Part shown: piece after piece, positions 8,603 to 61,343 of the stretch | How positions within the stretch are numbered: the stretch's first letter is position 1 | How the letters are laid out: every line of letters begins with the position of its first letter | Source of the DNA: Branchiostoma floridae | Taxonomy: Eukaryota; Chordata; Leptocardii; Amphioxiformes; Branchiostomatidae | DNA length: 64,000 nt | Assembly (NCBI RefSeq): GCF_000003815.2 | Contig: NC_049980.1 | Location: forward strand, 15,805,576 to 15,869,575 | Reading direction: 5' to 3' | Made by a program: the position numbers and the translations under genes | The notes under the pieces: model-generated | What the model saw: the letters and a program-made list of their open reading frames with translations, nothing else | What the model was told of the DNA's origin: nothing | The model's database searches: none

Positions 8603-8636
8603 ATATAACCAACCTATATAACCTCCTTGATATAAC
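8603..8636. mobile_element. Micro-copy of CAAGGAGGTT-family element (damaged left arm)
   Basis: A 20-base insert CAACCTATATAACCTCCTTG (8610-8629) lies between two identical 7-mers ATATAAC (8603-8609 and 8630-8636). The right half is the family terminus AACCTCCTTG; the left half appears shortened by a small deletion. The local sequence is TATAACC-rich, so this is the weakest member of the group. Confidence 0.5.
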
Positions 8637-8639
8637 CAC

Positions 8640-10200
8640 ACAGGTGACCGCCTGAAGTGCTAATTACTGTGCTGAATGCCGGGTACCGGTGGCGTGACCA
8701 TTCAGGTGCTCCAGACTGAAGTCGTCGGGTCACACTGTATCGTCGGGTATGAGAAAGCGCAACAGGATTTTTGGGGACATTAACATCGCCCTCCAGAGAC
8801 TGAAAATACGCACTAGAGACGGCTATCGTCAAAAATAATGTATGCCATGCAATGGCTGTCATTTCCTTTTACTCATGCTGCTTTTACTAATCTTATTCGC
8901 TGACATATCAAGACGAGACACCCCCGTACATTATGTAGTTTCGGCCATACTCGTACCGGCACCCGGCAACACGGATGATTAATGACGTCAGTATGTGCCT
9001 ATTGTAAATACCCCGAACAATGGTGGGGTGGGGAACGTTACTTATCTTGGTTACTACGGATAAACAACAACCCGGGTCACCTCATATAGAAAGGAGGTTG
9101 TCAACATGAAACCACGTGAAGGCTGGTGTGATCTCAAAGCAGATGCAAGGGCCTGACTTGGGATTTATGCACCAGGATCTACGCGTGTAATTTAATATAG
9201 TAATAGTAATATTTATTGCATGATATTTATAGATGAACGGGAAATAACATCTATATCTACTTCTACTTAATAATGCTATCTTCTTCTGATAAAGCACCTT
9301 CGAGATTAGGGGGGCACACACCAGTTTATTTGGGGGTTCAAATGGAGGCGGCACACCCTCAAGTCTAGCGACCATCTCTTCCAGGGAATTATCCTGAAGG
9401 AAAATAACTGTATATGGGGTGAGAGGATACACCTTCAGCTTCAAGACCAACTGAGTTTCGATCCTTCAACTTCTCTAATTTTGAAAAATTATAGGGAAAA
9501 AACATTATTTTCATGTCAAAAATGATGCACAAAATCGGGCATTTTCGCATTGGATAAAACAGATGAAGAAGATTTTTCCGGCAAGCACGGCTGATACTGC
9601 CAGAAAGAGGAAAATCTAAAGACTAATCCAGCCAATTATAAAGAAAATTCTAGTACTACAGTTTTTTTAATCATCCACGGCGCGCGGCATTGCAACTTTG
9701 CTTGACACAGCGCTTCAGAGGTAAATCTAGGTCACCGGCCTCTTTACATTCAGGCGTAGGGATATCGCGGAAGCAACGCGCGGACCAAAACACAATTTGC
9801 ACCAAAAACACACCATTTCCTACGCTTTTCAGCCATGTAACCGTTTAATGTCATTTCGCAGGAAATAATGAGAAATGTCAACTCAAACATGGGCCCTCGG
9901 AAGCCTTTCGTCACTTTTTGGTCGCGGACTACGGAAGAACTGGGGTGTGCACCGTTAGGCTGTGTGACAGAGAAATAAAACATTCGTTGCCGTCAAATTT
10001 TAATGAGTAGGTTCAGTTTAATACCACCATATTCTCATGTAATATTCTCACGACCAAAAACAAGAAATATTGAAGTTGAACTGTACTATTATCCTCTATC
10101 ACAAGAGGAATATCAACAAAGAGTGTTTTTCATCGTTCGCCAGTTTTCGGTAATTTTACCCCAATATTCTCCCAAATAGTGGTCTAAACAAGTCGAAACG
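8640..10200. other. Gene-poor stretch
   Basis: No exon with supportable splice sites or family similarity. A single CRE palindrome TGACGTCA occurs at 8983-8990. Open frames here look random. Confidence 0.45.
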
Positions 10201-10888
10201 ATGGTTGGGAAGGGAAACAAAAGACTGTACATGTTAAGAACACTGTCCAAGTATGGCCTAACTACTGGTGACCTTGTACTTGTCTATATTGGTTTTGTAC
10301 GCCTGGTATTGGAATACGCATGCCAAGTGTGGCATCCAGGATTGACTGTTGCTGAATGTAAGTCAATTGAAAGAGTGCAGAAGAGAGCTTGTAGGATAAT
10401 CCTCGGACAGAACTATACCTGCTACAGCTCGACACTGACTGAACTCTCCCTCACATCACTGTCTCAGAGACGTCATGACCTATGCAGTTCTTATGCTCGT
10501 TCACTGTATAGATCCCCGACCTACAGGGACTGGTTCCCTCCCTGTCGTAAGGAGATTACTGGCAGAAATACACGTTCAGCCAACAAACTGCAGGTCCCCA
10601 GAGCCAACACCTCTCGTTTAAGGAAAAGTCCAATATACTATATGGTCTCACTACTCAATGACGACATTGTATGAACTATGTGTTTCTACCTTCCCAGTTT
10701 GTAAATAAGTCTGCGTAATGAGGTGATTATTGATGTACATATGTATATAGTTGGAACAGTTTTTAAGCCATTTTTAACTGTTAACAAGCCCACCAATTCA
10801 GCCCTTGGGCTGCTATCAGAAGCTTGTACTTTTTTATTGTTCTGAACGAATAAACCTGTCATTCATTCATTCATTCATTCATTCATTC
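10201..10888 (+). mobile_element. 5'-truncated CR1-group LINE, 3' end
   Basis: The open frame 10201-10674 encodes the C-terminal part of a reverse transcriptase ORF (GFVRLVLEYACQVWHPGLT, IERVQKRACRIILG, RDWFPP, TGRNTRSANKL). The same order of motifs occurs in the intact LINE at 56.4-59.6 kb, so the two belong to one group, though only moderately similar. A 3' UTR follows and the copy ends in seven ATTC repeats (10861-10888), the short tandem tail typical of CR1-group elements in place of poly(A). The catalytic domains are missing. Confidence 0.85.
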
Positions 10889-12544: not shown

Positions 12545-12591
12545 CAACAACCAAGGAGCTTTTATCACTGATAAAAGCTCCTTGCAACAAC
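12545..12591. mobile_element. Micro-palindrome with 7-bp target duplication
   Basis: A 33-base palindrome (12552-12584) has 16-base arms CAAGGAGCTTTTATCA and TGATAAAAGCTCCTTG around a single C. Perfect 7-bp repeats CAACAAC flank it (12545-12551, 12585-12591). It begins and ends like the CAAGGAG family but differs symmetrically inside both arms. Confidence 0.75.
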
Positions 12592-13285: not shown

Positions 13286-14762
13286 TCTGCGTAGAGATTA
13301 ACGTTTATTTTACTATTTACTGACGCCCAACGCCTACATCTTCCCATCCAACCATTTAGATACTTGGACACTGGACATTAATTTCGACTAGCGCAAATGA
13401 GGGTCTGCATGGGGGGGTCTTGGTAACGCTTAACGGTGAATTCAGGAGGCCCGGTAACGCTTAACGGTGAATTCAGGAGGCCCGGTAACGCTTAACGGTA
13501 AATTCAGAATTAGTTACAAAGCATAACAGTAACATTGACGTGCATTCCTATTCATACAACGCTAGAGTAGTTATATCAATAGGTGAAAATACATTGTGAG
13601 AAGCAAAAGGTTCCCAGAAACCCGGAGGAATGACAGGGACAATGTCCATGACATTAGTAAATTGACGGAGGCAGAGTTCCGGGTCCGCCACAGAGACAGC
13701 GGCAGCAAATTTCTTATGGGGCGATTGAACTATTTTTTCAGCACATCGAGCGCCGAAGGCGCCACCCATTCCAGGGGGGTCCGGGGGATGCTTCCCCGGA
13801 AAAATTTAAAAATCAAGACCCTCTTAAATGCTATTTCCTGCATTTTCGGCAAATTTTGCCGACCGACTAAGCTAGGTTGATTTTGACATTTTCATCAAAT
13901 TACACATGATTATACTCGTAGCTTTGGCCTCCACCCCCAGAGCCCCGACATATTTTTACCATTTTGATCACGAGACGTTGCAATATAAGTCCGGGAAAAT
14001 TTTAAAATCTGGACCGTCTGAAACGCCATTTACTGAATTTTGAAGGACAGATTTTGCCGTAAGACGAAGCTAAATTAAATGACATTTTATTAGAGAGAAA
14101 AGTTTTTTTTGTGCGAAAACCCACGCCCCTAACATATTTTCGCCATGTCGTCGTGAGCGCCAAAGGCGCAAGCCGTCGCAATGGAGGTCCGGAGAAACCT
14201 CATTTTCTGCATTCTAAGAGAACTTTTTGCCTGAAACTAAGCTATGTTTGACACTGAAATCTGCATGAGTGATAAAGTTTTGAGGGCGACGCTTCCGCAA
14301 CATATTTTACTATGTTCAGAGCCGAAGGCCGGGAGGCTTGGAGAAATTTTGAAATCTGGACCCTTTGAAACGCCATTTCCTGCAATTTCAGGGGCTCTAT
14401 CTGGCATTTGACTTCGTGTGTATAGTATAACGGGTGCATAACGGGTTACGAAGAATTTCTTGGTAACGTTTAACGGTGAATTCGGGATAACAAATAACGA
14501 TTAACGTTGAATTAAAACGACCAATAACGCCTCACGAAGAATATACTGATAACGGTTAACGTTGAATTAGAGCGGGTCAGTAACGATTAACGGTGAATTA
14601 AAATGGCTCGTAACGCTTAACGGAAAAAGGCATGCAGACCCTCGCAAATGTCTGCGTAGAGATTAACGTTTATTTTACTATTTACTGACGCCCAACGCCT
14701 ACATCTTCCCATCCAACCATTTAGATACTTGGACACTGGACATTAATTTCGACTAGCGCAAA
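13286..14762. repeat. 112-bp direct repeat bracketing a DNA transposon
   Basis: Positions 13286-13397 and 14651-14762 are identical over 112 bases and in the same orientation. They bracket the MITE at 13400-14642. The right copy starts exactly where the right 8-bp target duplication ends. The simplest history is a tandem duplication followed by insertion at its junction. Confidence 0.85.
13392..14650. mobile_element. Non-autonomous DNA transposon, AGGGTCTGCATG termini, copy 1
   Basis: The element 13400-14642 (1243 bp) has perfect 12-bp inverted termini AGGGTCTGCATG/CATGCAGACCCT and identical 8-bp flanks CGCAAATG (13392-13399, 14643-14650). An 8-bp duplication suggests hAT. If the terminus is taken as GAGGG, the duplication reads 6 bp. 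Both ends carry arrays of TAACGsTTAACGGTGAATT-type units and the interior has several GCCGAAGGCGC segments. No transposase frame. A second copy is at 18110-19345. Confidence 0.85.
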
Positions 14763-15020: not shown

Positions 15021-15053
15021 CAGGAACCAAGGAGGTTACCTCCTTGCAGGAAC
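15021..15053. mobile_element. Micro-palindrome with 7-bp target duplication (19 bp)
   Basis: CAAGGAGGTTACCTCCTTG (15028-15046) is a palindrome with 9-base arms and one central T. It is flanked by perfect 7-bp direct repeats CAGGAAC (15021-15027, 15047-15053). It is simply the two termini of the CAAGGAGGTT family fused. Confidence 0.85.
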
Positions 15054-17541: not shown

Positions 17542-17550
17542 CCAAACAAG

Positions 17551-20500
17551 ATGGCGGTCCTCAGTACGATACAATGCGTGTTCAGCGTGGTGTTGGTGTT
17601 GTTCGCCTCACCACTGCCTTGCCTCAATGTCCGAGCGTACCAAAGGCCCGTCATGGTACAACAGACGGGCAAAGTCTTGCCTAAGCCGCAAATGATGACG
17701 GTGTCTGCTGAAGCCTACACTCTGGCGATGTCCAGCTTTAAATTTACATACGGCTCTTCCTCCGAGATGTGCGACATCGTGGACCAGGCGTTTAGGCGGT
17801 ACTATGATCTTATATTCGACGTCGATGGACCGAAGAAAGCTCCAAAGGTACCTGAAAGCATGGCCGAGCTGACTGTACTACAGGTCATGGTGAAAGAGCC
17901 ATGCAAGGGAGCCTATCCCAGCTTGGAGTCCTCAGAAAACTGTAAGTACAGAAAATCTAAAATACAAAAATGTTACTGTAAAAAGGAAAATATTCGCGGT
18001 GGTTTCATGGTCGCGGTTTTAGCGAGGACCTCTTAAGAAGTTCAGTGCGAACTTAGAACCACGGTGAACACTTCCATCCTTTTACGTGTCAGTTTCAACC
18101 AATTTACAGAGGGTCTGCATGGGGGGGGGGGGGTCTTGGTAACGCTTAACGGTGAATTCAGGAGGCCCGGTAACGGTTAACGGTAAATTCAGGAGGCCCG
18201 GTAACGCTTAACGGTAAATTCAGAAGGAGTTACAAAACATAACACCGTTGAAAGTAACATTGTCGTGCATTCCTATATATACAGGTTTGACTGTAGTTAT
18301 ATCGATGGGGGAAATATCCGACTAATGACAAAGCAAAAGGTGCCCAGAACTCGGAGGAATGACAGGGACATTGTCCATGACATCTGTAAATTGACGGAGG
18401 TAGAGTTCCCGGCCCGCCACAGTGACGGCAGAAGTAAATTTCTTATGGGGGGATTGAACTATTGTTTCAGCACATGGAGCGCCGAAGGCGCGAAGCATCT
18501 ATTGGGGGTGTTCCGGGGGTGTGCTCCCCCGGGAAAATTTTAAAATCAAGACCCTCTTAAATGCTGTTTCCTGCATTTTCGGCAAATTTTGCCGACTGAC
18601 TAAGCTAGGTTGATTTTGACGTTTTCATCAAATTACACAATGATTATAGCTCCACCGCTGACATATTTTACCATTTCAAGCTCAGAAGGCACGAGACGTT
18701 GCAATATAACTAAGTCCGGGAAAATTAAAATCTGGACCGTCTGAAACGCCATTTACTGCATTCTGAAGGACACATTTTCCTGTAAGACGAAGCTGAATTA
18801 AATGACATTTTATTTGAGAGAAAAGTTTTTTGTGCCTACCCACGCCCCTAAATATTTTCACCATGTCAGCGTGAGCGCCAAAGGCGCCAGCCGTCGCAAG
18901 GAAGGTCTGGAGAAACCTCATTGTCTGCATTCTAGGAGTACTTTTTGCCCGAAACTAAGTCAAGTTTACACTGAAATCTGTATGAGTGATAAAGTTTTTG
19001 AGTGCGACGCTTCCGCAACATATTTTACCCTGTCCCGAGCCGAAGGCCGGGAGGCTCGGAGAAAATTTTGAAATCTGGACCCTTTGAAACGCCATTTCCT
19101 GCATTTTCCGGGGTTCTATCTGGCATTTGACTTCGTGTGTACAACGGGTTACGAAGAATTTCTTGGTAACGCTTAACGGTGAATTCAGGATAGCAAATAA
19201 CGGTTAACGTTGAATTAAAACGACCAATAACGCTTCACGAAGAATATACCGATAACGATTAACGTTAAATTAGAGAGGGTCGGTAACGATTAACGGTGAA
19301 TTAAAATGGCTCGTAACGTTTAACGGAAAAAGGCATGCAGACCCTCTTTACAGGTGCTTGATTTTCGCCCTACAAGTCCCCCTAAACATTAATCCGCGGT
19401 GGCAAATTTTACCCCTCTGCCGGCTGAAGTCCTTCCCCAGCTTATTGAAATAATCCAGAATAGATTCTGTAAAAATATTCTAGGAGTACAAAGAAGTTCT
19501 AGTAACAGTCCGTATAGTCAAATATTGGCTTCGACTCAGACAATTAAATATGTCTTCACATCCGTTACAAGTAGATGCACTTCAGTCACAACATTATTTA
19601 CCAGAGAACAGCCGCAGGAAAAACTGGATACATCATGTAAAGGAAGTACTTGATAACAGCGGCTATTCATACATCTGGAATACCGACATCATAGACAGCA
19701 GTTATTCATGTACATTGTTAAGGAGAAGGTTGAATGACATGTATACTCAAACTTTCTTTTACAAGTTATCTGTAGACGAAGGAAAACTTAGATTTTACAA
19801 AAACTTAAAAACAACATATGACATGGAAAACTACTTGTACCATAATAATTATGATTACCGCTCAGCAATATGTAAGTTACGAATTAGTTCGCACCCGTTA
19901 GAAATAGAGAAAGGAAGATACAAAAAGCTACCTNNNNNNNNNNNNNNNNNNNNNNNNNNNNNNNNNNNNNNNNNNNNNNNNNNNNNNNNNNNNNNNNNNN
20001 NNNNNNNNNNNNNNNNNNNNNNNNNNNNNNNNNNNNNNNNNNNNNNNNNNNNNNNNNNNNNNNNNNNNNNNNNNNNNNNNNNNNNNNNNNNNNNNNNNNN
20101 NNNNNNNNNNNNNNNNNNNNNNNNNNNNNNNNNNNNNNNNNNNNNNNNNNNNNNNNNNNNNNNNNNNNNNNNNNNNNNNNNNNNNNNNNNNNNNNNNNNN
20201 NNNNNNNNNNNNNNNNNNNNNNNNNNNNNNNNNNNNNNNNNNNNNNNNNNNNNNNNNNNNNNNNNNNNNNNNNNNNNNNNNNNNNNNNNNNNNNNNNNNN
20301 NNNNNNNNNNNNNNNNNNNNNNNNNNNNNNNNNNNNATGGGCATGAATTTGCAATAAACTTATTAAACTATGTACTGTTTTATGCCACCGAGGAATCTGC
20401 TTGGAGATTACCTAAACATTTCTCCTTTGTCAATATTTTTGTTGTAATGTTTAACATTTTCATGTTTTTATAATCATTTTACACGTCACATATTTTTCCA

Positions 20501-26500: not shown

Positions 26501-29500
26501 TGCATAAAAGGAATACTTTTAATTTCACTGTTGACACTGCTGAAATCTCATTCAGTTAGGTTCAATAGAATGTCTCATCCATGTGCGGTCCATGAGAACT
26601 TTGTTGATGTAACATATACGTACTAGAAGTAGGGCAGTAAGGAAAAGTCAAGCCTTTGTTCTAAGCAATGTGCCAGGCTTTAGCTTCTTCATGTAACACA
26701 GTGCGTTCACTGTGTATTGTTGTTGCCAGGACAAATCAACTGTAGGGGAAGTATGGTTTGAAAACCCGACCATCCAGGCTGTACTAGAGAGGCTGACAGC
26801 CAAGGGTTATCGTGTGTTACTGGCAGCTGGCTGGTATCTGAACCATGATGTATACAACCCTGGAACTGACTGGGCTGATTTCTACAAATTAGATCCTCAA
26901 GTGTTCAATGGTTTGTTATTGATCGGGTTGCCCCTCTTATTTACTTTCCTATTTTGTACATTCATTCCACAATTGGAACATGTGAACATAACAAAATACA
27001 AAAGTATAGACTAGTCACACTGACCCACCATTTGGAAAACATCAGTGATTCTTTTTTTTTTTTTTTCAATCTTTATTCAAGATTCAAAAATACAGTACTG
27101 TAAATGCAGAAATGTTCGCGGTGGATTAATATTCGCGGTTTTCGCGGTGACCACTTCACCGCGAACTTAAATCCACCGCGAACATTTTTCTATTAAGGTA
27201 NNNNNNNNNNNNNNNNNNNNNNNNNNNNNNNNNNNNNNNNNNNNNNNNNNNNNNNNNNNNNNNNNNNNNNNNNNNNNNNNNNNNNNNNNNNNNNNNNNNN
27301 NNNNNNNNNNNNNNNNNNNNNNNNNNNNNNNNNNNNNNNNNNNNNNNNNNNNNNNNNNNNNNNNNNNNNNNNNNNNNNNNNNNNNNNNNNNNNNNNNNNN
27401 NNNNNNNNNNNNNNNNNNNNNNNNNNNNNNNNNNNNNNNNNNNNNNNNNNNNNNNNNNNNNNNNNNNNNNNNNNNNNNNNNNNNNNNNNNNNNNNNNNNN
27501 NNNNNNNNNNNNNNNNNNNNNNNNNNNNNNNNNNNNNNNNNNNNNNNNNNNNNNNNNNNNNNNNNNNNNNNNNNNNNNNNNNNNNNNNNNNNNNNNNNNN
27601 NNNNNNNNNNNNNNNNNNNNNNNNNNNNNNNNNNNNNNNNNNNNNNNNNNNNNNNNNNNNNNNNNNNNNNNNNNNNNNNNNNNNNNNNNNNNNNNNNNNN
27701 NNNNNNNNNNNNNNNNNNNNNNNNNNNNNNNNNNNNNNNNNNNNNNNNNNNNNNNNNNNNNNNNNNNNNNNNNNNNNNNNNNNNNNNNNNNNNNNNNNNN
27801 NNNNNNNNNNNNNNNNNNNNNNNNNNNNNNNNNNNNNNNNNNNNNNNNNNNNNNNNNNNNNNNNNNNNNNNNNNNNNNNNNNNNNNNNNNNNNNNNNNNN
27901 NNNNNNNNNNNNNNNNNNNNNNNNNNNNNNNNNNNNNNNNNNNNNNNNNNNNNNNNNNNNNNNNNNNNNNNNNNNNNNNNNNNNNNNNNNNNNNNNNNNN
28001 NNNNNNNNNNNNNNNNNNNNNNNNNNNNNNNNNNNNNNNNNNNNNNNNNNNNNNNNNNNNNNNNNNNNNNNNNNNNTCATTAATTACATTGCTGTATTCT
28101 GATTTGCAGAACTGTGAAACTACTGATATCAATCCATTGTAAACAAATTCTGAAGTAATTACATTAAATTTCAAACCTAATTCTTTATATGACAACATTT
28201 TTTTATCACCATCTAACACATCATGAACAAACAAAATACAGTGGTCTAGCATATCCTGCCATAAGAAAGGTTTATGGTTTATCTTAAAATTCGAGTTATA
28301 CCACAGGACATGTGATTGTGATTCAGTCTCGGGGGGGTTAAACTGGAATGCCAGCCAAGCTGATAGTACATCTCTGAAAAATACACTAACACAATGGAAC
28401 TCTAGCTTAAGAAACATGTCAATTTTCATTACGTCATTATCTATTTGAATAAATGGAAATAACCCTTTTTCAAAGACAACATGTGTGTTTGACAGAAGCT
28501 TAGAGCAAAACCAATGAGTATTATGATATAGTTTTGGTACCCATGATGCCTTCAATGAAGCGTTAAATGCACATAAATTAATAAGTCCTAATACTCCACA
28601 ATCACGTGACTTATGTAATACCTTTCTCTTCAGCCTCTCCGGACCATTGTTCCAAATGAATTTAAATATTCTTCTTTCGTACTGTTGAAAAAATGTATGG
28701 TCTGGTGAGGGTAGAACAAGGAACATGTGAGCAAAAAGGGACACTACCAAAGAGTTAATTATTGCAATTTTTCCGTACAATGATAACAATCTACCCCTCC
28801 ATGGCTGTAATGAGGAGTCAAGCTTCATAAGACATTTAGTACAATTAATAGAAACTATTTCATTCATTCTTATTGGAACATGTGTTCCTAGCATATCAAA
28901 TGGTCCATCAGTCCAATCCACTGGGTATTGACATGGAAATCTAAAATCAGTGCCTTTAAGGGACCCGATTCTAATTATATTACACTTTCCATAATTGGGT
29001 GTAAGGCCCGAGAGTTTACTGAAGTGATTTAGATCACTGGTTAATGCGTTCAGTGAGACAGGTGTAGGTTCTAATGCAAAATTTGTGTCATCAGCATACT
29101 GGGCCAATTTTGTTTCTATCTCATTTGTTACGAGACCTTTGATGTTTGTGTTACTCCTGATTCTAATAGCTAGTAATTCGACAGTCACAATAAAAAGATA
29201 GGGTGAAAGAGGGCATCCTTGTCTTACCCCTCTCTGGGGCTGGAAAGGTTCTGACAAATTTCCATAATTGACAATCCTACTAGAGATATTGCTATAAAGA
29301 ACTTGCACCCATTTGACAAAGGAGTTTCCAAAGTTGAAGAACTGCAATGCCCTTAAGATAAAGTCCCACCTAATGCGGTCAAATGCCTTTTCATAGTCGG
29401 TTACAAAAATTATTCCTGGTAAATTCTCTTCTTCATATTTTTCAATGATCTCCAAGATTCTGCGAATGCCATCTCCAATGTATCGTTTCTGCATAAAACC

Positions 29501-34905: not shown

Positions 34906-34921
34906 AGGAAAATGACTTTTG

Positions 34922-40900: not shown

Positions 40901-43900
40901 TGACCAGCAGAAAAGCTAACACAAATGCACCTGCTCTATCAGGATAGCCCTCTCCTCCAATGCTCTCTCCTGGAGTTGTGCATCATCCACGTCCTGCAGC
41001 AGTGTAGTCTGGTACACTGACCCATCATTCCCTGGCCCAAGGGTCCATGCTAACTTCTCCATGGACACCAAGTCCACCATTCCATTGAAAGTCTTCTCTA
41101 TGCCAATGGGTAGCTGAACACAACATCATTCATATCAAAGTTGTGCAATTGAAATTATTGTTAATATCTGTAGTTTAAAAATACCAGTCTTCATATACAT
41201 AATCAATTTACTAGAAATTATTACAACACATACGTGGAGCACTAGAGGAACAGTCTTCAACTTGTCTCTGATTGAGTTGATGGAATACTCCAAGCTGCAT
41301 CAAGGAACAACATAGAAGAAACAAAAGAGTGTTAAAATATTGAAGCACCATATTTTCTTGAACAATCACTAACCTCTGCATAACAAAAACAGATCCTAGA
41401 TGGCAATACTTACTAGTATTCTATTGGCAGCATTAAGATAGGTACTTTTTGGTTAAGAGCAACTTATCATATGAAGTGAGTGTGAGATGAAGCCTTTTAA
41501 AGAACACAGGTCAGCACCAAGGACAGCAAAAGAGCAACAATGAGACACAGGTCAGCATCAAGCACAGAGAAAGAGCAGTAATGAGACACAGCGACAGCTA
41601 CACTTTTGAAAATAATTTGGATGAGATCGAGCCTATCATCAAATATTAATGTGAGTCTTCCATTTAATCATTTTCAAATTATATACCATGTCTCCCTGTG
41701 AATAGAACCTAGTACCTTGCTCCAGTCTTGTCCATTTTGTTGAGGAAAGCAATCCTTGGGATAGAGTATCTGTCTGCCTGTCTCCACACTGTCAGCGTTT
41801 GTGCCTGCGGCAACAAGTAACAATCAAATACACAATGTCACCAAAGTTATGGCATGACAGAACTTTCACCAAATAAAAAGGGTTTGCAGGTTTATCCTGA
41901 TTTTAGATCTTGATTCCTTAGCAAGACAAGTATAGCATAGGAGCCATTCTCTGTATAGCTACCACTGGCTCTTAGTGTTTTTGCTTCATTACCACAAGAA
42001 ATCAGCCAAATGGGGACAGCCAGTGGTAAGTATAATGGGATCCCAGTCTAAGACAAGTAAAACAGTAACTAGACTAATTGTTACTGACTTCCACACCAGC
42101 TGATGCATCAAAGACAGCCACTGCTCCATCTAGAACCCTGAGAGAGCGTTCCACCTCCACTGTGAAGTCAACATGGCCTAACAAAGAAAACACACATACA
42201 CAAACAACAATGAATGGAGTTAGGTGAGGGCTATACTGTGTCTACAATTCTATGTTCAGAGTTATCATTTTTTTCATGACTTTCCTTTTTCTGCCAGTCA
42301 TCCAAAGTAACAGGAATCTTGACTTCACTCTACATTTGTTTCTTTTGCATAATTGGTAAACTGCCTTCATGTTTAACGTACCAGCTTTTGCATAGTAGGT
42401 ACAAGCTGAATAATACCTAACTGTAAGGTTTGATCCACTTACACAGGGATGGATCTCTCCTCTTGTCAATAAGTGTAGCGGGATCTTTAACATTGTCTGG
42501 GTACAGTTCTCCTCAAACACTGAGGCTACAGCTTTATGCCCAATCTAAGAGGCCATCCTTAAGCAAAACTTGGTAGTTGTTTTTACCTGAGTCAATTGAG
42601 GAATAGGATTAAAGAGCCGTTCTCAATGGCACAACAATGTGGCCTGCTATGTATTTAAAACAAGAACATTTAGAATAAGATAGAAAGTTGATAACAGCCC
42701 TAACAACAAGACCACCATGCCACCTGTGTTCAAACATCCACTCCATGTAGCCTCACCAGGTGTATCAATGAGGTTGATCCTGTGGTTCTTCCAGTTGAAG
42801 GAGATGGCAGCAGACTGGATAGTGATACCCCGCTGTCTCTCCTGACTCATGTAATCCATCACTGTGTCACCATCATCAACATCTGCGTGTCAACAGCAAA
42901 TCAAAGTTTTCATTCTAGTCATGTTCAGCTATCCTAAAGAAAATTCCTGCAGGCTGACTTTTTTCTGAAAGTCGAAACCAAATATGCTGCTTCAAATGTG
43001 TGTCAGATGAATACTTTTGTTTTCAAATTATAAACTAGCCTTATAGCATTTCCATTAAGTAATACTGTACTAATAATATGAAATAATTCTAGAACTTTGA
43101 GACAGGTGATAGTTGATGTCTCCTTGTCTTAAAGCTCTTATAAATACATCTCAACCTTACCTCCCAAAGCTCTGGTAAAGCCTGTATAATACAGCATTCT
43201 CTCTGTGGTGGTGGTTTTCCCTGCATCTATATGTGCCATGATGCCTATATTCCGTATTCTGTGGCAGAAACAAATGAAAGTGTATAGAACAGGAGTGTTT
43301 AAGTGTATATCTAATGGAAATTTAATTTCTTCCTTTACATCTTTTCTTCCCAGTTGACATATCAACAAATCAACAATTTACATTATCCATATTTCTCACC
43401 TGGTCATCTCAGCCTCGACGATCTCTGTTCTAGACTTCCCTGAGACAAAAAAAAAAGATAAGATGTCTATGATGGATGTGACCTACAACATAGGTTAAGT
43501 TAATGATGTGATATAAGTACAATATCAGTGAACTAGACAGCAGGTGAGTTTTAACGATTTTGTTACATAACTTACCTGAGTACCATCTGTAGTGGTAAAC
43601 ATGTCTCCCTCCTCTCAGGCAGGGATGAGCAAACCGCATTAGCTGGAGGTGACAGGCAAAACATAATTTGTGATATTCTTTATTGCCCTGCACAAATGCT
43701 CATTTTATTATATAACGTTAATAATAATCAAGGAGGTTAAAAATCACCTTTTTAACCTCCTTGTAATAATAAAACAGAGGAAGAATGAATCCAACACTCC
43801 CCACCCCCACCCCGGGAAAAGGACCTTTACTCTTCTTCTTCTTTTCTAAGACCTCTAGCTGCAGTTCTACTGCGTCAGATCCCAACATGTCACTCAAATC

Positions 43901-44206: not shown

Positions 44207-47200
44207 ATGGCGTCGCTTCAGGACAAACATCGTAAGGTCGGTTTTCGCTGGGTATCTCTCTCTGTTTTGTTAAATAAATCATGAATATACGTTTTTCTAT
44301 AACGAAATATATTTATGTGGTGTAAAAGTGTGTATAAATGTAGCACAATAACGTTATTTCATGCAGGAGAGAGTGGTCTTTTGGCAAATCATTTTCGACC
44401 AGATGGGCGGTACGGTGCGGTGTAACTGCCTAAAATCATTTTTTAGCTGCTCTGTAAAATTTAAGGTGTTTAATAGACTCTTTTGTGTTTTGTTGTTGTT
44501 CCCGCTTCATATAAATGTTTGTCTGATCAAGGAAGTCTCTTTTTCAACCTCCTCGGTCTGATATTGTAGATATTTGTTTGATCCTTTGTTTCTTCCTGAA
44601 AAATTGAAATCGGCCTGCTGACCACCTTTCATCGAGGTCATAAATATAATATATATCATAAAATATATATGACTAAGAGAGTCAGAAACATATATAACAA
44701 AGATACAGATTATATCATTGTTGACAATAAATCCATAAACATGTTCTTGATAATAATAAATGTTGATTAATGTTAACTGTTATATCCCAATCACAACTGT
44801 GGAATATATGCCTGATGTTGCAGGTACGATACTGGTTGGAGCAGATGTTTGAAGGAGAGACAGTTCCTCAGTATGAGGTGAATGAAACCACCATCACCGT
44901 CCTGTACGACCTGGCCTGTAAGAATGAGGCTGTTAACAAGGACACCAGACTTCTGCTGGAGGACCTGGGGCAGAAGGCTGAGGAGTACAATGCAGAAGGT
45001 AATGATGGGCGATGATTCGAAATTCCATTTTTTAGCAGAAGTGTTTTTGGACTGGTCTATTTTACCTCTCTACATGTGGTGCACAAGTATCAAGTAGTAA
45101 GTACATGTGGTGCACTGGAAGAGTTCAGTCTTGCATGTTAAGATTTTTTAAGATTCTTTTTTTGGGGGATTAAGTGTGTCATTTTAAGGAGAAGTGTTCC
45201 ATTTTTGCACATGGGCAATTTTGGAACAGTCTACTAGTATTGTTGGAGAGAGATGGCTGAGATATGCTGTATTTGCTCTCATTTGTTTTTACTTAAGGCC
45301 ACACCAATTCAAAATAATATTAACTTTGAAGCCAAGATAAGTGCTTAGATAACATCAAGAAAACTACATTTTCACCTTGGAATAAACAAACAAGCATTCT
45401 ATTGCAGACCATCAGGACCTTCAGGAAAAAAAACGCAAACATTAGAATTGGCAAACAAAATCTATACAATTTTAAATTTCCCACTTTTTGTAGTTACAGA
45501 AAAGAAATCAAAATACGTACTTTCAAGTGACTGAAGCTAGGATACCAAAAAGGTCTCATTATGCAACACGGCAGCTACTGACCAGCACCTAATGTGAATA
45601 TTCTTCTTCACTTCTCTTTCAGCAAGAAGACTTTCCAGAACCCTTCGGTCAGTAGGCTTAACACCAGAGAGCCTGACCAAAACTGGGACTACAGCTCTTA
45701 GCACACTGGTCGGCACAGCCCAAACACTAGAACTCAAAAACACATCAACAACAAGGTATGAAATGTTATAACAGACTTTGGTTCACAGCAAAGCACTTGC
45801 AAACATGTAATGGATAATGGTGGAGATGTGTGAATAAGGTGTGCTTTTAATGAGAATGTATTACTGCAAGTGTTTTGAAGTTTTCCCTTGTTCTCTTTTA
45901 CTGAGTGCAGACAACAGCATTCCTGTTCTTTCACATTCATATTTTTGCAAAATGATGAAGGTTAGACATTCAGATAATGAGATACTCAATACAAAACGTA
46001 TTCAAGCAATTTTGTAGATTTCAAAACTCACACAGTTGCTTCAGAATATTTTGTTTATAGTATCTTTTTCATGTTGTAACAGATTTTGTCATTCATTTCC
46101 AGCTATCTGTTGGCCATGAAGGACATTTCCCAAACAGCATTAGATGTGGAAGACTCTCGTAGGGAAGAGCAGCACCTTAGTAAGGAGCTTCTTAGGAAAA
46201 CTACAACTGCCATGGCACATCTCAATGCTATTCAAAGGTGAGGGAGGTGTGGAGAGGGCAAAGAAAGCTGACTTAAATATGCATAATTATGAACATGGCT
46301 GTAAGTGTAAGACTAAGAGAAGTAAAAGTAGCAAAATGCAAACAGATGTCAACTAGGAAAAAAGCAGAAAACATTCCTTGTATATGTACATAAAGCATTG
46401 AATTTGAAGATTTGTACTCAATATATTAAGAAACCTGGCTGGTATGGTGATGTAGTTTGACCTGACTGAAGAACAGCTACCAGGTTAAGAAACTAAAACA
46501 GATACAGTATGATATACAGTATGCTGCATTCCTCCCAATGTACTCTACAGAGATGAAGAATCACTGGATCAGAGAGAGAAGATGAATGGTCCAGACCTGG
46601 AAAAGAAGGCCCAGACTGCTGTCTTCTTACAGAACAAGGCAGCAGAGTACAGGAACTCACTTCGACAACTTAGGGTGAGCAGCAAACTATGACTTAGTTA
46701 TCTAGTTGGTAACAAGTGCTGTGAGTCTTCTGGGATAGAACTGGCCAGTGTAATGGCCTGGTGGGAAGGGTGTTTGCCTTGCATGCAGTAGGCATATCAT
46801 CGGCTGAGTTTAACCAAAGACCTTTAGAATGGTACATACTGCTTTCTCTACACTTGCTGAAGTTACTGTAAATGCAGAAATATTCGCGGTGGATTAATAT
46901 TCGCGGTTTTCGCGGCGGCCGCTTCACCGCGAAATTAAATCCACCGCGAATATTTCGTCTGCTGGCGCCGCCTAAGGTGCCCCTTTCCCGCTCCATGTAC
47001 ATACTACTACTGTCTTTGTCACTGTATAATGAAATGTTTGACATACTTACTACGGTGAAGTCTTGACTGAAGACACACATGTAATTTTTTCATACGACCA
47101 ACTGTATTACAGTACTGTACAGTATGTTCACCATGATACAAAGGTCGTACTACTGTATACTATTACGTATTGAGAGGGTAGATACGATTAGATCAGTAAC

Positions 47201-48608: not shown

Positions 48609-49643
48609 TCATATAGAAAGTTGTTCACATTTTTCCACAGCATTGTCAATGCCTGCTGCCATATCTTCTCTATCTGCCAAGTTGCCCTGCTGACCTGTAT
48701 CTCCAGAGTTTTCAGTACTTTTCCCATCTTTAGCAACCAAATCCCCATCTGAAACACTGTCTGGGTTTTGAAGAACCTTTTCCTCTTCTAAATCATCACT
48801 GCTGTCATCTTCACTATCCTCTGTGTTATCCCCAGCTGAGGGTTTTCTGTCTACATCCCCTCCCTTCTCCACACAGCGCATGAAGGTCCTACGCTGCCTC
48901 TCAGACATGAACTTCAACTCCTGCTGGAGCTCAGCATCCCTGGCAGCCTCCTCTGCTGGAGACAGGGTGGCTGGTGTCACCACCTCCTCACTCTTACCAC
49001 ACTTAGCACACACACCAGCAGTCCCTGGAGGTGATAGAAAATCATGACCATTAGCATGATTCAGTTAACTTCAACAAAGGATGTCAAGCATATCGCATAT
49101 CAAAATCATCCACTTATATTATTATGAGTGGCTTTTGTAAATGAAAAAAAAATGATTTGGGTATTTCATATATCTTGTTAACTTTCAGCAATGATGACAA
49201 CCATTGTTTCCTCAGCTAACGTAAAAGCACTAAGAAATCCAGTTGGGCCGAGACCATTATTTCTTTTAGTTCTATGCTTACAATCTACATCTGTGGTGGT
49301 GAACATGTATTAACTAATAAGTTTAACTTTTACAAAGGAAGGGGCAAGCAACTTGCATATACTTCTACCTACTTGCACATGGCATACACATGATGGTGTA
49401 GGCCTGTTTGACAGTCTTCTGTTCACACCTGACACATTTCTTGGGTTGAGACAGTGGTTTGTACTTCTTGTATTTAATCTTCCAGTCGATGACGGATTTG
49501 CAGTGTGGGCACAGTCCTCCCACCACCATGGCGTTCAGCTTCTTCGTCTTCTGACTCTGATCGTGCAAGTTGTTCTTGAAAGCCTTTGAATTCTTGTACT
49601 TCTGCGGGCGTGAACGCGCAACATTTCCTCTCTGTGAACTCAT
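48609..49643 (-). CDS. C9orf85: C9orf85 homologue (DUF2039 zinc-binding protein)
   Basis: Two exons, 49643-49373 and 49024-48609, joined in phase 1; 228 aa. The N-terminus MSSQRGNVARSRPQKYKN and the block KYKPLSQPKKCVRC followed by KxYxIMCxPCA match vertebrate C9orf85. Four CxxC pairs (CPHC, CVRC, CMPC, CAKC) suggest two zinc sites. After the last one the protein becomes acidic and Ser-rich (DNTEDSEDDSSDDLEEE), longer than in human. Function is not established. The intron-spanning residue was set by phase: A plus GG gives Arg in CARTAGVCAKC. Polyadenylation signal AATAAA on the minus strand at 48516-48511. Divergent with COMMD1. Confidence 0.9.
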
Positions 49644-49953
49644 TTTGACAAACCGTAACTTAACCGTTCAAGTCAGAAAAGGGAACTGAAAAGCAATCCA
49701 GCTACATGGGGGCAGCCATCTTGGTTTAGGACGTACCACCCCATTATAGGTAAGCTAAGCTACAAGATGGTAGCCTAGTTTTGTTACCGTATTCGCGTGT
49801 AGTACACCGTTAATATAGTTTACACTCTCTATATATAGTATCTATACATAAGAATATGAAATCAAAGTCTAAAGCGTACAAAATTCAAAGTATAAGGCAT
49901 CGCCAAAACCACACCGCCCCTTCATCAAACATGGATCAGTCCCGCGGGTCAAG
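49644..49953. promoter_or_regulatory. Bidirectional promoter of C9orf85 and COMMD1
   Basis: 310 bases separate the divergent start codons. The interval contains CCAAGATGGCTGCC on the minus strand (about 49711-49724), a YY1-like site. COMMD1 starts in CAAGATGGCTGA. Confidence 0.7.
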
Positions 49954-52245
49954 ATGGCTGACTCAAGCAAAAGTTTTCTCGGTCTGTTGAACGGCCTGGC
50001 TAGACGGACGTATTATGGGGATGAGAACATCACAGACGGCTTTCTGAAGGAAGAGTTGTACCCGGAGATGCCAGAGGGTGACTTTGAAGCATTGTTGTCT
50101 AAATGCAATGGCTTGATAAAGGTAGATATTCTGACGGTTACCCGGGTGGGGTGGGGGGCGTCACAAAAATTTTATGATTATGATAAGATCTAGAGTAGAG
50201 TTCTGGCGCAGGTAAGATATGATGTAAATAGATGACGTAAAATATTTTGTACAGCACGGCTATTAACATTACTAGGTAAAAAGTTGCGATACTGAACATG
50301 GCCTATGTCACATTTTTAATGATTTTTCATGAAAACTCATGATTTAATAATCATCTGGTGTATTATAATCATAATCATCTGGTGTATTTTGCCAGCCAGT
50401 AGGTACCCAAAGTATGAGTAATGAGGCTGTTTAACGTGGTCGAGGCACCTCCTCGAGCACGGGACCCCCGTTTTACGTCCCTCCCGGAAGACGATTTCGT
50501 GGAAAACTTCGTGAGGCTACAGCAATCCGGACGGCTATTAACATTACTAGGTAAAAAGTTGCGATACTGAACATGGCCTATGTCACATTTTTAATGATTT
50601 TTCATGAAAACTCATGATTTAGTTTTGATAGTTGGGAGAAGATCTTTTAAAACACCTCTCAGTAATCTGTAATTTGACAAATTAGAGCATGGTGTCAGCA
50701 GACATGGACTTCAAGCAGTTGGAGGCATTTGCCACCTCGCAGACCAAGCGTAAGCAAGGTGGAATCACGGAGGAGGAGGCTCAGATGCTGACCAAGTTTT
50801 GGAAAACCCACAAGTCGAAGATCCATCAGGTTGTTGTCAGCAGGTATGTCAGGCTATCTTAATCTTATATCTATTTCTGGGGACCTGCATGCCCTTTTCA
50901 GTTTGGCATACTCAGAGTTTAAATTCTAAATGTAGGGCTCTAATTCTGCAAGTAGTGCAATGGCCCTTTAATTCTACATTATCATTATGGATAGTAGCTA
51001 CCCTGATCTTACCATAAAATGTACATACAGTAATTGTCAAGTGTAATATTTCAAAGTTAAGGCCTGTACTTCTCAAACACAAAACATCATCAATTGCAGA
51101 TGTGCTTGGAACAACAAACTGAAGGATGTGAGCTGGAGGATTGATCTGAAGATGCAGGCTAAACATGTGGATCAGATCAACCAGCCCACAGCTATTGTAG
51201 AGCTGCAGGTACAGAATGGGGACCAACAGGTAAACACACTTAGTGTCACTACCTGTATATCATTCTCATATAGTAAAATTCTCTTAAACGCAACCAGGCT
51301 AGTACTCATTCTGTTCATATGTGCACTTTACCTTCTACAGCAGAATTTATGGAAAGATTTCATCAGAACATGTGGTATTAAACTATTATATGGCATAATG
51401 GCTATCTAAAGGCATTTGACCCTCTGAAATGCCCTGATGTTGTTTTCTTGGAAAAGACACTTTACTGAGTTTACACAGCTTTCCTCACTTTAGTGACGTC
51501 CATTGGGCATTTTGTTTGGTCCATTGTCTAATACTGATGAAGATGAAGAAGCTAAGTCACCCACTGATTTTATGTGCCAACATGCCTATTTGGCTGTAAG
51601 AAAAGTAGGAAATAAAGTTAACAGCAACCAATGTATTTATCAAAGTAGCAAAATTAAGCCAACAGAAGGTGAAGACTATAGTTGATGAAGAGAACAGTTT
51701 AAGATGTCTCACTCAAGTTCAGAATCTAAAGGTCAGAGCAGCTCAGGCACAATTTAGCCACCCAGCATATCTGTACACCTTTAGCTAGGTAATTAAACAA
51801 CTATTATCACTATTACAGATGCAGGTGACAATGATAGGTGTAGATAGATTGAAGGTACCTTAATATCTCTATGTGTATCTTGTTACTGGTATATTGGTAC
51901 TCCATACAATGCCATCAGCGTCACACACACACATTGTCTTAAAACATTTTCTACTCAATAAAATACATGTAATAGTAGTTTAGAGCAAAGTAAATTGGTT
52001 ACCACGAGGTTGGTAATTTGCTGTTTGTAAATATTTTGGACCTTGTGAACTCTGCAGTCTTAGCAGTAGCTAAAGCCATTTGTACACAAAAATGTATGTA
52101 AACGGAGATGATTGAGACTTGCTTATGGTTTCTTTTTCAGGAGTCTAATGTTGTCAGGTTTGAGATGGACGAAGAGAGGTTATCCAAGGTCGTCAAAGAC
52201 ATAGAGAAGATTGAGGAACAGATCAGTGCTCACTGTCAAAAATGA
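49954..52245 (+). CDS. COMMD1: COMM domain-containing protein 1
   Basis: Four exons, 186 aa (human 190): 49954-50121, 50686-50843, 51100-51229, 52141-52245. COMMD1 is a subunit of the COMMD/CCDC22/CCDC93 complex in endosomal sorting and copper homeostasis, and affects NF-kB turnover. Matching segments: SFLGLLNGLARRTYYG, SADMDFKQLEAFATSQTK, GGITEEEAQMLTKFWKTHK, and the COMM domain from LKDVSWRIDLKMQ through VVRFEMDEERL to the C-terminal helix KVVKDIEKIEEQIS. The ATG at 49954 was chosen because the upstream ATG at about 49931 is in another frame. A 91-bp direct repeat lies in intron 1. A candidate ATTAAA signal is at 52864-52869. Confidence 0.95.
50256..50621. repeat. Perfect 91-bp direct repeat in COMMD1 intron 1
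   Basis: 50256-50346 and 50531-50621 are identical over 91 bases in the same orientation, starting ACGGCTATTAACATTACTAG. The 184-base spacer contains a GC-rich segment (CGAGCACGGGACCCCCGTTT) unlike the surroundings. A recent segmental duplication or recombination product is likely. Confidence 0.85.
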
Positions 52246-56430: not shown

Positions 56431-59400
56431 GAAATCTTTGAAATCTTTGAAATCTTTATTAACATACCACGTTGCAGACATTTAGTTATGTCTGAATTGT
56501 GTTGGCATTTACATGTGCTCCTCCAGGGAGAAATACACTATAAGTTAAGTACATCAATCTAAAAGGACACCATTGTTCAAAGTCTTAAATGCTACCAATA
56601 CGACTTTTATCACCGATAAGGGACCATTGGTCTTAGACTACATATCACAATCAAGACAAGTATTCTGTTATTATGGACAGACATGCACAATATAATAGTC
56701 GATATAATTTGTTCAAAAGATGTGTTCAAAAGTCACTCAATTCTTTCAAAAGTCACTCAGTGATCAGGCCATACTTGTTAATCAGTTGGCACATGTACGG
56801 TATTGGCGAGTTTCTATATCTGTTGGTTCGTGCTGCTGGGCAATCTACCTTATCACTGTTTCTGGTAGTGCGGCCAGTTATCTGAAATCTTTGCGGAGGT
56901 AGCCAGTCTCTGTACTCAGATTTCAAGAGTGACTTAGCAAACTTTACACATAACAGTTCCCTTCTCTCGGATAGCCATGACAGTCCTAGCCGTTGGAGTG
57001 CAAGGTCGTATCCTACGTAGGAGTCACCAAGAATAATGCGGCATGCCCGTCTTTGGATCCGCTCAAGGTTTCGTTCTTGGGTTTTAGTGAGACCGGGGGA
57101 CCAGGCAGGGGCTGCATACTCCAGGATAGGTCTAATGTATCCTGTGTAGATGGTGGTGAGGTCACTATGGGAGAGGTTAAACCTTTTGAGTCGTTTAAGG
57201 AAGTACAGCTTCTTAGCTGCTCTCCCCTCCATGTAGTTCACTTGTTTGTCCCAGCGTAGGTTGTTTTGGACAAACACACCAAGTAGTTTCAAGCTGGGGA
57301 CTTCGGGCAGTGACACATCACCTATTTGTAGCGATGGCAGCAATGGGGGATTCCGGCTAAAGTAGACATGCATGACCATACACTTACCACTGTTCAAAAG
57401 CATATGGTTAGTTTCAGACCAGGAGTTTAACTCATCCAGATCACTTTGTAGAGTAGATGCCTGGTTGAGGGTTCTAGTTTCTAACATGTTCATATCATCG
57501 ACATACTTCCACACAGAACTGTCGGCGTTATTGCAGGCATCATCAATTAAGACTAGGAAAAGTATGGGCCCTAGCAGGGTGCCTTGTGCAACCCCGCACG
57601 ACAGATACTCCCATCCGGACAGAGACCCTCGGTAGCGTACAACTTGCCGCCTGTTGGTGATAAAGTCACATATCCAGGGCACAAGTTCCGGTCTTAGGCC
57701 CTTATCTATCAGTTTTGTGATCACTGTGTTATGGTGCAGCCTATCGAAGGCCTTTGAGAAGTCAGTGGCCAAGATTGAGCAAGTCGTAGATGGTTTGTCT
57801 GTAGCTTTGCATATACTGTCGACTAGGCTGACAATAGCGTGTACAGTCGAGCGCCCTTTCAGGCTTCCAAACTGACGCCTGTCAAAGTCAATGTCGTTCA
57901 AGATCCAATTCAGAGCGAAGTATTCAGCAATCTTGGAAAACTGAGATGTAAGGGAAATTGGTCTTAGTTGGTCAAGTGTGGGTGGCTGAGATTTTGGAAT
58001 GGGGACTACCACAGCTTCTTTCCACTGACTCGGCACGAGACCTTCCGCAAAGGAGGTGTTGAGGATATGACAAAAGGGATCGGCAAATTCACAAGCGAAC
58101 TCCCGTAGTAGCTTCAAAGGTATATTATCAGGGCCGGGTGCCTTGCTTGACTTGGTTGCTAAGAGGCGCTTGTACACGTCCCAAACCTGAAGGGGAGGTA
58201 ACTGTTTGGAGGCAGGTAGAAAGCTTGGTAGTGTGGTGAAGTCAAGCGGAGGGAGGGTCTGGGATATTCCGGCAAACTTGGAATTGATGGCTTTAGCTAT
58301 AGCGGCATTATCCTCAGTGTCTAGGCCCGGGACCTTGATCTCGGTCTCACCCTTTCTAGCGTTGGCCATGTTCATCACTTCCTGGTGCCATTTACGTGGG
58401 TTGGCAGTTTTGAGGGAGGCGACTCTGTCTGTGAAGTGGTTCTTCTTGGCACGGGTTATAGCCCTGTGTGTCATGTTTCTGTATAGTTTCCAAACTGCTG
58501 GGATCTGCTTGTGGAACGCCTTCTGCCTCAGGGCGATTAGACGTTTGATGTGGGGTGTCATCCACGGTTTGTCGGAAATGTGCGTCTTGATGGTTTTGAT
58601 TGGGAAACAGGTAGCAATGGCATCCACGAGTGTTGCATGAAAGGCATTTGCCTTTGCGATCGTGCCAGATGCGTTGTACACCTCTGACCAGTCGTGGGTC
58701 GTGGCCCACCGGCCAAACTCAAAAAGATTTTGTTCACTCAGGTGTCTGATTTGTTTTACTGTAGGTTTAATGCGAACATGTTCCTCCTTGGGGGTCCAGA
58801 GAACTGACAAGTGGTCACTCAGACCCACGGGAGGCAAGACTGTAGGGGGGTGATACTCGTTTTTCATATTCGTTACAATCAGATCCAGCATGGCGTTCCC
58901 TCTGGTGTTGTTTCGTACGACTTGAGACATAACAGTACCTCTGCACAGTCCCGATATGTCGAGTCTGTTGAAATCACCAAGAATGGCAATTCCACAGTCT
59001 GGGTGTTTACTGCGAATCTTGTCAGAAACAGTCAACAGATGATCAATAAGGACGTCTCCGTTAGGTGAGCTGGGGGGGAAGTATACTCCACAGACAATGA
59101 TTGCCGACAGGGGACGCGGTAGCCGCCGTGGTCTCGTCCAGACCCACACGCATTCAAGGCCGTCCGGTACGTCGTATTCTGTCAGCTGCCTTGACATTAT
59201 CTGTTGTTTGACATATACTGCCACACCACCTCCTCTCTTGTCAGTTCTGTGTGTTGAGAAGACATTAAAATCACTAACCGCAATGGCAGTCTCGGGGTGG
59301 GTGTTTGATTCCCAAGTCTCAGACACAATGGCGATCTCTACATTGTTGTAGGCCAGCGTCGCTTGGAATTCGTCTATTTTGTTTATTATAGATCTCGGGT

Positions 59401-59551
59401 TGCATAGGAACATTCGAGGGATAGAAGCACGGCCAGAAGACTTGGTTTGGGGGGCACAGTCAACGGGTACGTTACGCAATACTCTGTCCCTCTTGACCAC
59501 CGATGACGCACTGACTGATTTGCATCTGAATCGGTCAAGCAGAGAGGGCAA
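56431..59551 (-). mobile_element. CR1-group LINE with intact 932-aa ORF2
   Basis: Minus strand, uninterrupted ORF 59551-56753. Endonuclease residues present: LCNPRS, SETWES, GDFN, LSDH. Reverse transcriptase: SSKAPGPDNIP, RPISLTSQFSKIAE, ATDFSKAFDR, GVAQGTLLGPILF and catalytic YVDD. C-terminal TGYIRPILEYAAPAWSPGL and RIQRRACRIILG. The 3' UTR ends in AATAAA and three exact copies of a 9-mer (GAAATCTTT on the plus strand, 56431-56457), the microsatellite-type tail of this group. No frameshift or stop, so this copy is young or possibly active. An ORF1 was not identified upstream. Confidence 0.9.
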
Positions 59552-60178
59552 ATAAGTGATTATTCGCAGGTTCGTGTGTAGGATAAGATAGCTTATACAT
59601 GTTTTTGCTTCTGATCATACCACCTACGCGCACCACGTACAGTTTGGGGCGAGACTACCTGGAAATCAAGAGTCCAAAATGTAATGCAAAATTGTCCCAT
59701 TTGGGAATGCCGCCGGCCATGGGTGCTAAATCGTAAATGTTACTTTTTTGTAGTACCAAGAAGGTTGTTAGATCCAAGAATATTCGTCTTATCAAAGAAA
59801 CCATGGTAGGAAAAATATTTTTATGGACCACATAGACATGAATACGGAATATTAATTTAATTAAAGTACTAGTTAGTTTTCGGTTAGACCAAGAAAGTTT
59901 TTTAAATCTCCTTGGCTAGACAGAAGTACATGGGTCAGAATACCAGTGCATAGTGGTGTTCAGAACCAGTCCATACTCTACAGTATGGCCCAGGCTTTGA
60001 AGTTGTATTGCACTGGCAGCTTTATTGATTTAAACCCACTTCGCATGCACTGCTGTCAAAAGTTTGACTACCATGTTTGGAATTCAATACAATGTTACAA
60101 TATTTTGTTCGCGAACACCACATTGTCTCAACTTCTGCTGCATTCCACATTGGAATGTTCAATGCTTTTTCCTGGTAC
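59552..60178. other. Unassigned, possibly LINE 5' region
   Basis: No ORF1-like frame or exon seen between the LINE ORF2 start and the next transposon. AT-rich. Confidence 0.35.
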
Positions 60179-61343
60179 GTGTGACCAAGGAGGTTAAAAA
60201 AAGAGAGGAGAGAGTTCCTATTGTTCCGATCTTTGCCGCGAGTGTGAATCACATCGAAGTGCTAATTACCCCAATCTGCATCTCGCCAGGCTAGTGTGGG
60301 CCTTTGTTTACGAATCAGTTTCAACATCACTTGTCCAGGAACATCGATTTGGGGCCGGGATTTCAGTGATTTTGAGGATGATTCTCATTAAATACAGCAC
60401 TACTTTTACTAAAGAAACAGATATCAATAGTGACGATACTTCGCCGGAAGCAAGTGCGAGCAGAGTTCCCCACGGGCCACAGAAATGTGTGTAACAACAA
60501 GTCACGCGGTGTAGAAGAACGCTGGGTCGGCTTTCATATCCTGGACACACGGCAAAAAAAAAAGTTTGGAGCTATTTGTAAGAAGCTTGAGAAACGCTAT
60601 GCAACTTTATTTTCAAGTCTGTCAAATTTAGATATCAAGCCATCTGTGTAAAAAAAAATTGCGTTCCTCGTGAGGCGAAAATTCCCTCAATACCAACAAG
60701 ATAAATTTCCTCGGAAATATTATCTTGCTTCCCATCATTGCCATGAACATCCACGGAGCCCTCATAGTACAAAATTCATGCATCACGAACAGCAAAAATC
60801 GATCGCGAACAGCAACAACAAATACTTATTTGCCACACCCAAGCCCTCTACTTTCGTGGAAAAAAAGTCTCTTTTGCGGGGCAAACGTAATAATGTTTTA
60901 ATAGACACATGAAGTAGAGAATATTGTTCATAATTCTGAGACAAAAAATCGGGGATACAGGGACAAAAATGCCTGTAAATTCACTCAACTTGGTCGCACA
61001 GCGCCTATCTTCATGATCGCCATCTTGGTCTCTCCACAACAGTACTGTTTGCACACGTCACCTTCGTTTCCCAAATAAGGAAATTCGCGGAAACTGCGCT
61101 CATCTCGCTCTCAGTTCGGCAACCCTCGGTCGTCCTCGGCCGGGATCGCGGCGCATGACGTCATGGCTGGGCTCATGTGATTGGCTGACACAGAAATGGC
61201 GGGAAACCCCGCGGCCATCATGGTCATCAAAGACGCACCGCCGGAGGGCGGAAACAATGGGCCCGGAGGGTCTGAACAATAGCGCGCAGCGGGGTATTAA
61301 TGGTTGAGCTCTCTCCTGTGATTTTTAACCTCCTTGGTGTGAC
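60179..61343. mobile_element. Long copy of CAAGGAGGTT-family DNA transposon
   Basis: The element 60186-61336 (1151 bp) has inverted termini CAAGGAGGTTAAAAA/TTTTTAACCTCCTTG, with similarity continuing inward (GGAGAGAG on both sides), and perfect 7-bp flanks GTGTGAC (60179-60185, 61337-61343). No transposase frame recognised; open frames inside are short. The right 300 bases are GC-rich with a CRE palindrome (about 61155), GATTGGCT and GGCGGGAAA. Superfamily uncertain: 7-bp duplications are reported for Dada and P-type elements. Confidence 0.85.

Follow-up and report, generated by a model that had tools for sequence, protein, structure and literature searches.

The 64-kb stretch of amphioxus DNA analysed here (the window) carries seven loci at which a pair of inverted ends, beginning with CAAGGAG or a variant of it, lies between 7-bp direct repeats (Table 1). 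At six of them, which had been picked out by a reading of the letters without database searches (the sequence-only reading), both copies of the repeat are indeed exact, and only one has an interior, the inserts measuring 20, 33, 19, 35, 28 and 1151 bp in order of position. The ends CAAGGAG...CTCCTTG proposed as common to the six are literal at 12552, 15028, 43729 and 60186, while at 44528 they read CAAGGAA and CTCCTCG, with one mismatch per end, and at 8610 the right end is intact and the left end is reduced to CAA. The seventh locus, at 59883, is a weaker, decayed candidate, in which the duplications differ by one base and the ends (CAAGAAAG and CTCCTTG) by three. The window also encodes a host protein of the C9orf85/DUF2039 type (49371-49649, strand -), whose 105 matches all belong to the same Pfam family; the best identity is 69%, and arthropods, annelids and a rotifer relative, but no lancelet, are among the named matches listed, which marks the DNA as animal.

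Table 1. Coordinates in the window of the putative footprints and of the resident element with its repeats
Feature	Position	Strand	Description
Putative footprint 1	8603..8636	.	ATATAAC duplication (8603-8609, 8630-8636), 20-bp insert 8610-8629
Putative footprint 2	12545..12591	.	CAACAAC duplication, 33-bp palindrome 12552-12584
Putative footprint 3	15021..15053	.	CAGGAAC duplication, 19-bp palindrome 15028-15046
Putative footprint 4	43722..43770	.	TAATAAT duplication, 35-bp insert 43729-43763
Putative footprint 5	44521..44562	.	GTCTGAT duplication, 28-bp insert 44528-44555, tips diverged
Putative footprint 6 (weaker, absent from the sequence-only reading)	59883..59921	.	GTTAGAC / GCTAGAC, 25-bp insert 59890-59914
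Resident element	60179..61343	.	GTGTGAC duplication (60179-60185, 61337-61343), 1151 bp at 60186-61336
Resident element, left terminal inverted repeat	60186..60217	+	84% identical to right repeat
Resident element, right terminal inverted repeat	61306..61336	-	pairs with left repeat
Resident element, possible left subterminal inverted repeat	60218..60229	+	11/12 bases match right copy
Resident element, possible right subterminal inverted repeat	61271..61282	-	pairs with left copy

The resident element and the short inserts

The terminal inverted repeats of the 1151-bp element are 84% identical over 32 aligned columns. The candidate subterminal repeat was equalled near the ends by 2 of 200 shuffles and has an E-value of 6.9 when position is ignored. 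A reading-frame stretch inside the element (60198-60491) gave no Pfam match, and no second copy of the element was found in the window apart from a 19-nt tip match. The exact 19-nt tip was absent from viral_contigs and genome_contigs, collections that do not extend to animals.

At five of the six loci of the sequence-only reading, both duplications surround pieces of both tips with no interior between them, and the same duplication-tip-tip-duplication layout is seen at 59883. The six short inserts, of 19, 20, 25, 28, 33 and 35 bp, were compared within the window and no two are alike; the subterminal inverted repeat seen in the 1151-bp element is missing from all of them. In footprint 1, the right tip consists of 11 nt resembling that element and only 3 nt are retained of the other tip. 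This insert also contains ATATAACC, which repeats 8 nt of the flank; shuffles of the insert did as well or better in 1% of 2000 cases, a value left uncorrected although six inserts were tested. The arms of footprint 2 are perfect, with 16 nt each around a single central base; its agreement with the ends of the 1151-bp element extends over 7 nt only, so that more than one subfamily is present, the tip CAAGGAGCTTTTATCA representing the other one. Footprint 3 is composed of an 11-nt tip and a 9-nt tip with one base common to both. Over its first 19 nt, the top-strand tip of footprint 4 equals the resident element's right end, and its second tip is identical over 15 nt that are common to both ends of the element. 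Altogether, four of the six short inserts are not derivable from the exact tips of the single known element, and their parents are for this reason regarded as unseen.

Flanking duplications in the window and in shuffled sequence

Screen A, which looked for inserts of 15-60 bp and tolerated no more than 2 mismatches to CAAGGAGG over both ends together, returned six rows, one of which (15028, 57 bp) shares its left end with another. Exact 7-bp flanks were present in four of the five non-overlapping rows, the remaining one (18897) being mismatched at 5 of 7 positions. Screen B was confined to CA...TG inserts of 12-37 bp that lie between exact flanks and whose ends agree, when inverted, at 5 or more of the 7 terminal bases, with 60 dinucleotide shuffles as control. 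For 7-bp flanks it gave 4 real loci (12545, 15021, 43722 and a weak extra one at 45077) against 0.15 on average, and never more than 1, in the shuffles, whereas flanks of 5, 6, 8 and 9 bp gave 1, 0, 0 and 0 against 0.95, 0.33, 0.05 and 0.03 in the shuffles. The flank signal is specific to 7 bp, the other lengths being at background; the filter of this screen passes over 8603 and 44521.

Looser searches brought in more background. With at most 2 terminal mismatches and inserts of 15-45 bp (screen C), 17 real matches were obtained against 0-6 in 15 shuffles; four of the 17 were loci of the sequence-only reading, and the other 13 were mostly background as judged by eye. Matches of the loose screens at 3965, 18772, 47382 and elsewhere were rejected, as they do not resemble the family; 45077 and 63255 are additional loose-screen matches. 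Screen D admitted inserts of up to 8000 bp with exact flanks and at most 4 end mismatches, and for 7-bp flanks it yielded six rows, that is, five of the loci of the sequence-only reading (8603 was missed) and a 7685-bp pair (22178/29876) that we take as chance. Flanks of 6, 8 and 9 bp gave 3, 1 and 0 rows, respectively. Allowing one flank mismatch added 59883 with its 25-bp insert, and also rows of 1735 and 1157 bp that both reuse the right end at 8636. Among exact 7-bp-flanked pairs in the window, a sample of seven loci, no family insert of 36-1150 bp was found.

Chance palindromes that happen to lie next to chance repeats would be one way to account for these loci, given that background rows do appear in the loosest and wide-range screens, and single weak loci such as 59883 and 45077 could have arisen so. 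For the whole group, chance is rejected by the shuffles and by the other flank lengths, the excess in screen B being confined to 7 bp, and exact 7-bp flanks at four of five non-overlapping end pairs speak against it as well; we give this explanation practically no weight.

Excision and end joining as the probable origin of the short inserts

The short palindromes are very probably footprints that a P-like family of DNA transposons left on excision, with 60186-61336 as a resident, non-autonomous copy. The pattern itself is real, and the event that most likely underlies it is of a kind already known, encountered here in a natural setting. One of the two strands is described as being cut by P transposase at the element's 3' end, and the other 17 bp into the terminal repeat (PMC7776569, PMC10983969), an internal cut called unusual among cut-and-paste elements (PMC7776569). 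In the model proposed, a full element inserted and duplicated 7 bp, as the exact flanking 7-mers show. A transposase acting in trans would then, as we infer from the P mechanism, cut one strand at the border of the element and its partner some 17 nt into the terminal repeat, leaving each chromosome end with the 7-bp duplication and a single-stranded tip tail of about 17 nt. Because the element ends are inverted, the two tails would have nearly the same sequence. Once trimmed, they would presumably be joined, with microhomology or a few added bases, into the duplication-tip-tip-duplication structure observed, a near-palindrome that should not exceed some 34 bp, filler aside.

That the six short inserts all differ fits separate repair events, and the 8-nt flank copy in footprint 1 looks like templated filler. 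The model is also favoured by the 19 nt that footprint 4 shares with the resident element and by the lack of family inserts of 36-1150 bp above the largest short one (35 bp), in a sample of seven. Against it, those 19 nt are two more than a 17-nt tail, an excess that may reflect chance, filler or a slightly longer stagger; the parents of four short inserts are unseen; and no transposase was found in the 10 of 98 reading-frame stretches of the window that were scanned.

A yardstick for such products is provided by Drosophila, in which the P excision junctions of Table 1 in PMC2895639 consist of a duplication, pieces of two 17-nt tails and a second duplication, and show microhomology or templated filler. 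That table holds 66 isolates (68 were sequenced according to the text), and by our count both duplications survive in 44 of them, together with some of each tip. These 44 junctions measure 7-44 bp, with a median of 30, and 35 of them fall within 15-36 bp; the window inserts, of 19-35 bp, lie inside the full range. The tabulated flies are Rad51 mutants, unable to copy from a template (PMC2895639), and the table is a guide to junction shape and not to frequency, because in flies with normal Rad51 template copying competes with end joining.

Two routes had been considered in the sequence-only reading, namely mobility of the tips as such and precise internal loss after insertion, and it is the latter that is favoured here. 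The former would imply palindromes of 19-35 bp mobilised by a CAAGGAG-recognising transposase, each locus being a fresh insertion, as might be read from the fact that every short insert sits in its own duplication and that the flanks are all different. However, each of the six inserts has a sequence of its own, they offer no space for internal binding sites such as the 10-bp sites that P transposase binds inside its 31-bp repeats (PMC7776569), and a length ceiling near 2 x 17 would be left unexplained. Mobile tips have no support because the six short inserts all differ and have no subterminal repeat, and we consider them highly improbable. Nor does the route need to be seen as unusual, as had been claimed, since transposase excision with a cut within the terminal repeats, followed by end joining, is a known and ordinary one that yields this very structure, its junctions being variable and imperfect (PMC2895639).

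Excision could also have been followed by sister-chromatid copying from both ends that halted early, with the shortest products resembling tips. Gap repair is held to produce defective P copies (PMC4168063), and the resident element has the length of a non-autonomous copy; aborted copying should nevertheless leave tips of every length, and the sample of seven contains none of 36-1150 bp, so that this course of events appears quite improbable. Mutator-type excision was likewise considered unlikely; Muta1 seems to cut outside its own ends (PMC5225508).

If the short inserts are P-type excision footprints, the genome might hold a dense natural archive of such events, in which the donor breaks of the germline were often end-joined and not copied back, a proposal that we make tentatively and with somewhat more doubt than confidence. 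The 64 kb contain six putative footprints and a single resident copy, but this window was selected because it is odd, and its seven loci give nothing firm on genome-wide density. Were the archive real, each scar would stand for the repair of one germline break, with its tail length, microhomology and templated filler, and one genome would be enough to reconstruct both the history of transposition and the choice of repair pathway. P excision scars are already known from laboratory flies (PMC2895639). Natural scars of this frequency would easily be taken for tiny MITEs or overlooked, cut-and-paste losses could outnumber resident copies, and the junctions would directly record germline double-strand break repair in a non-model animal. 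In the literature searched on P excision footprints, amphioxus and genome-wide scars, no survey of P-type scars in an animal genome was found, which does not prove that none exists.

Target sites and comparison with known elements

The exact 7-bp duplication at six loci lies within the 7 or 8 bp by which the P superfamily is recognised. In 1360, an element of this superfamily, a 7-bp duplication with the motif GTTNAAC was reported at 98% of 279 sites (PMC3276498), and Galileo, another P-superfamily element, has 7-bp duplications as well (PMC4168063). The seven sites of the window agree with GTTNAAC at 24 of 42 positions (random mean 11.1), a fit that none of 20,000 random sets attained in one run and 1 of 20,000 in another, and among offsets of -15 to +15 the score peaks exactly at the duplication; the six sites of the sequence-only reading alone give 19/36 (P 0.0007). 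With the Galileo core GTANTAC, 22 of 42 positions agree (random mean 11.1-11.2), again best at the exact offset.

The outer target bases are not enriched, neither ANA..TNT of the P group (4/28) nor AAN..NTT of Galileo (6/28), against a mean of 8.3 in both cases, a failure that counts against P even though these bases are a within-group preference and not a strict criterion. The whole 13-bp motifs score 23/56 (attained by 371 of 20,000 random sets) and 25/56 (by 88 of 20,000), values that are carried by the core, the outer bases alone failing. Moreover, target palindromy of the duplications is not significant (7/21 pairs, mean 5.4, P 0.28), and a GT...AC core is also found in the hAT element hobo (GTNCGNAC; PMC3276498). 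For these reasons, and because no transposase was seen in the stretches scanned, it is better supported that the family works like a P element than that it is one.

The same footprint mechanism could have been driven by a transposase from outside the P superfamily, such as that of Dada, with a long stagger of its own. Dada elements have duplications of 6-7 bp. The outer target bases that misfit the P group and the lack of a transposase in the stretches scanned would agree with such a source. Against it, the 7-bp core agrees with those of 1360 and Galileo, and published accounts present the long internal cut as an atypical feature that is specific to P (PMC7776569, PMC10983969); an origin outside the superfamily is thus held to be unlikely, and a P-like family is still preferred.

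Regarding known systems, MITEs such as LanceletTn-2 of amphioxus (cited here by name only, from PMC5802833) are, like the family in the window, non-autonomous, with inverted ends and a target duplication. Unlike them, the short inserts are devoid of any interior or repeated sequence, and the many copies of one homogeneous short sequence that define MITEs were not found within the window. The Drosophila elements 1360 and Galileo share the 7-bp duplications and have core motifs that fit the window sites, but their flanking target bases do not fit, the comparison being one of target sites, and the terminal repeats of Galileo are very long. Zebrafish Pdre2, of the THAP9 type, is described with ends starting in CA, with non-autonomous deleted copies and with a short terminal repeat followed by a 12-bp subterminal inverted repeat, all of which recall the window with its possible subterminal repeat, and differs in its 8-bp duplication, its 13-bp ends (CATACCTGTCAAC) and in encoding a transposase (PMC10983969). 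The Drosophila P{w-a} junctions resemble those of the window in their intact duplications, in two fused tips of mostly 15-36 bp and in the microhomology or short filler at the joint (PMC2895639). They were induced in the laboratory in Rad51 mutants, with an 8-bp duplication and ends of CATGATG..., whereas the junctions of the window are natural, with a 7-bp duplication and ends of CAAGGAG... (PMC2895639 for the fly data).

Repeated palindrome and neighbouring stretches

The 17-bp palindrome TCGGCAAATTTTGCCGA occurs in two identical copies within the window (13846-13862 and 18579-18595), and the stretches found near them, at 14180 and 18898, are also similar to each other. The presence of the palindrome twice, together with the likeness of these nearby stretches, suggests a duplicated segment or repeat.

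Additional footprint-like loci

At 45077-45114, a 24-bp insert with CA...TG ends lies between exact TGGTGCA copies, with 5 of the 7 terminal bases matching in inverted orientation. It is possibly a footprint (the proposed excision scar of a P-like transposon) of another subfamily, and possibly a chance arrangement. A 41-bp insert between ACAGAAG copies (63255-63309) presents CATG at both start and end, and nothing beyond these features supports it.

Other coding features

The first LINE-type frame listed runs on into an N stretch. At 37858-38250, a reading-frame segment lies in tandem repeats, its translation showing a short repeat array.

LINE-type reading frames and host gene pieces
Feature	Position	Strand	Domain or protein
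Long LINE-type reading frame	28079-31297	minus	endonuclease and reverse transcriptase domains
Long LINE-type reading frame	56756-59614	minus	endonuclease and reverse transcriptase domains
Host gene piece	7548-8123	minus	cytochrome b5 domain
Host gene piece	49371-49649	minus	C9orf85/DUF2039-type protein
Host gene piece	49873-50190	plus	COMMD1 N-terminal domain
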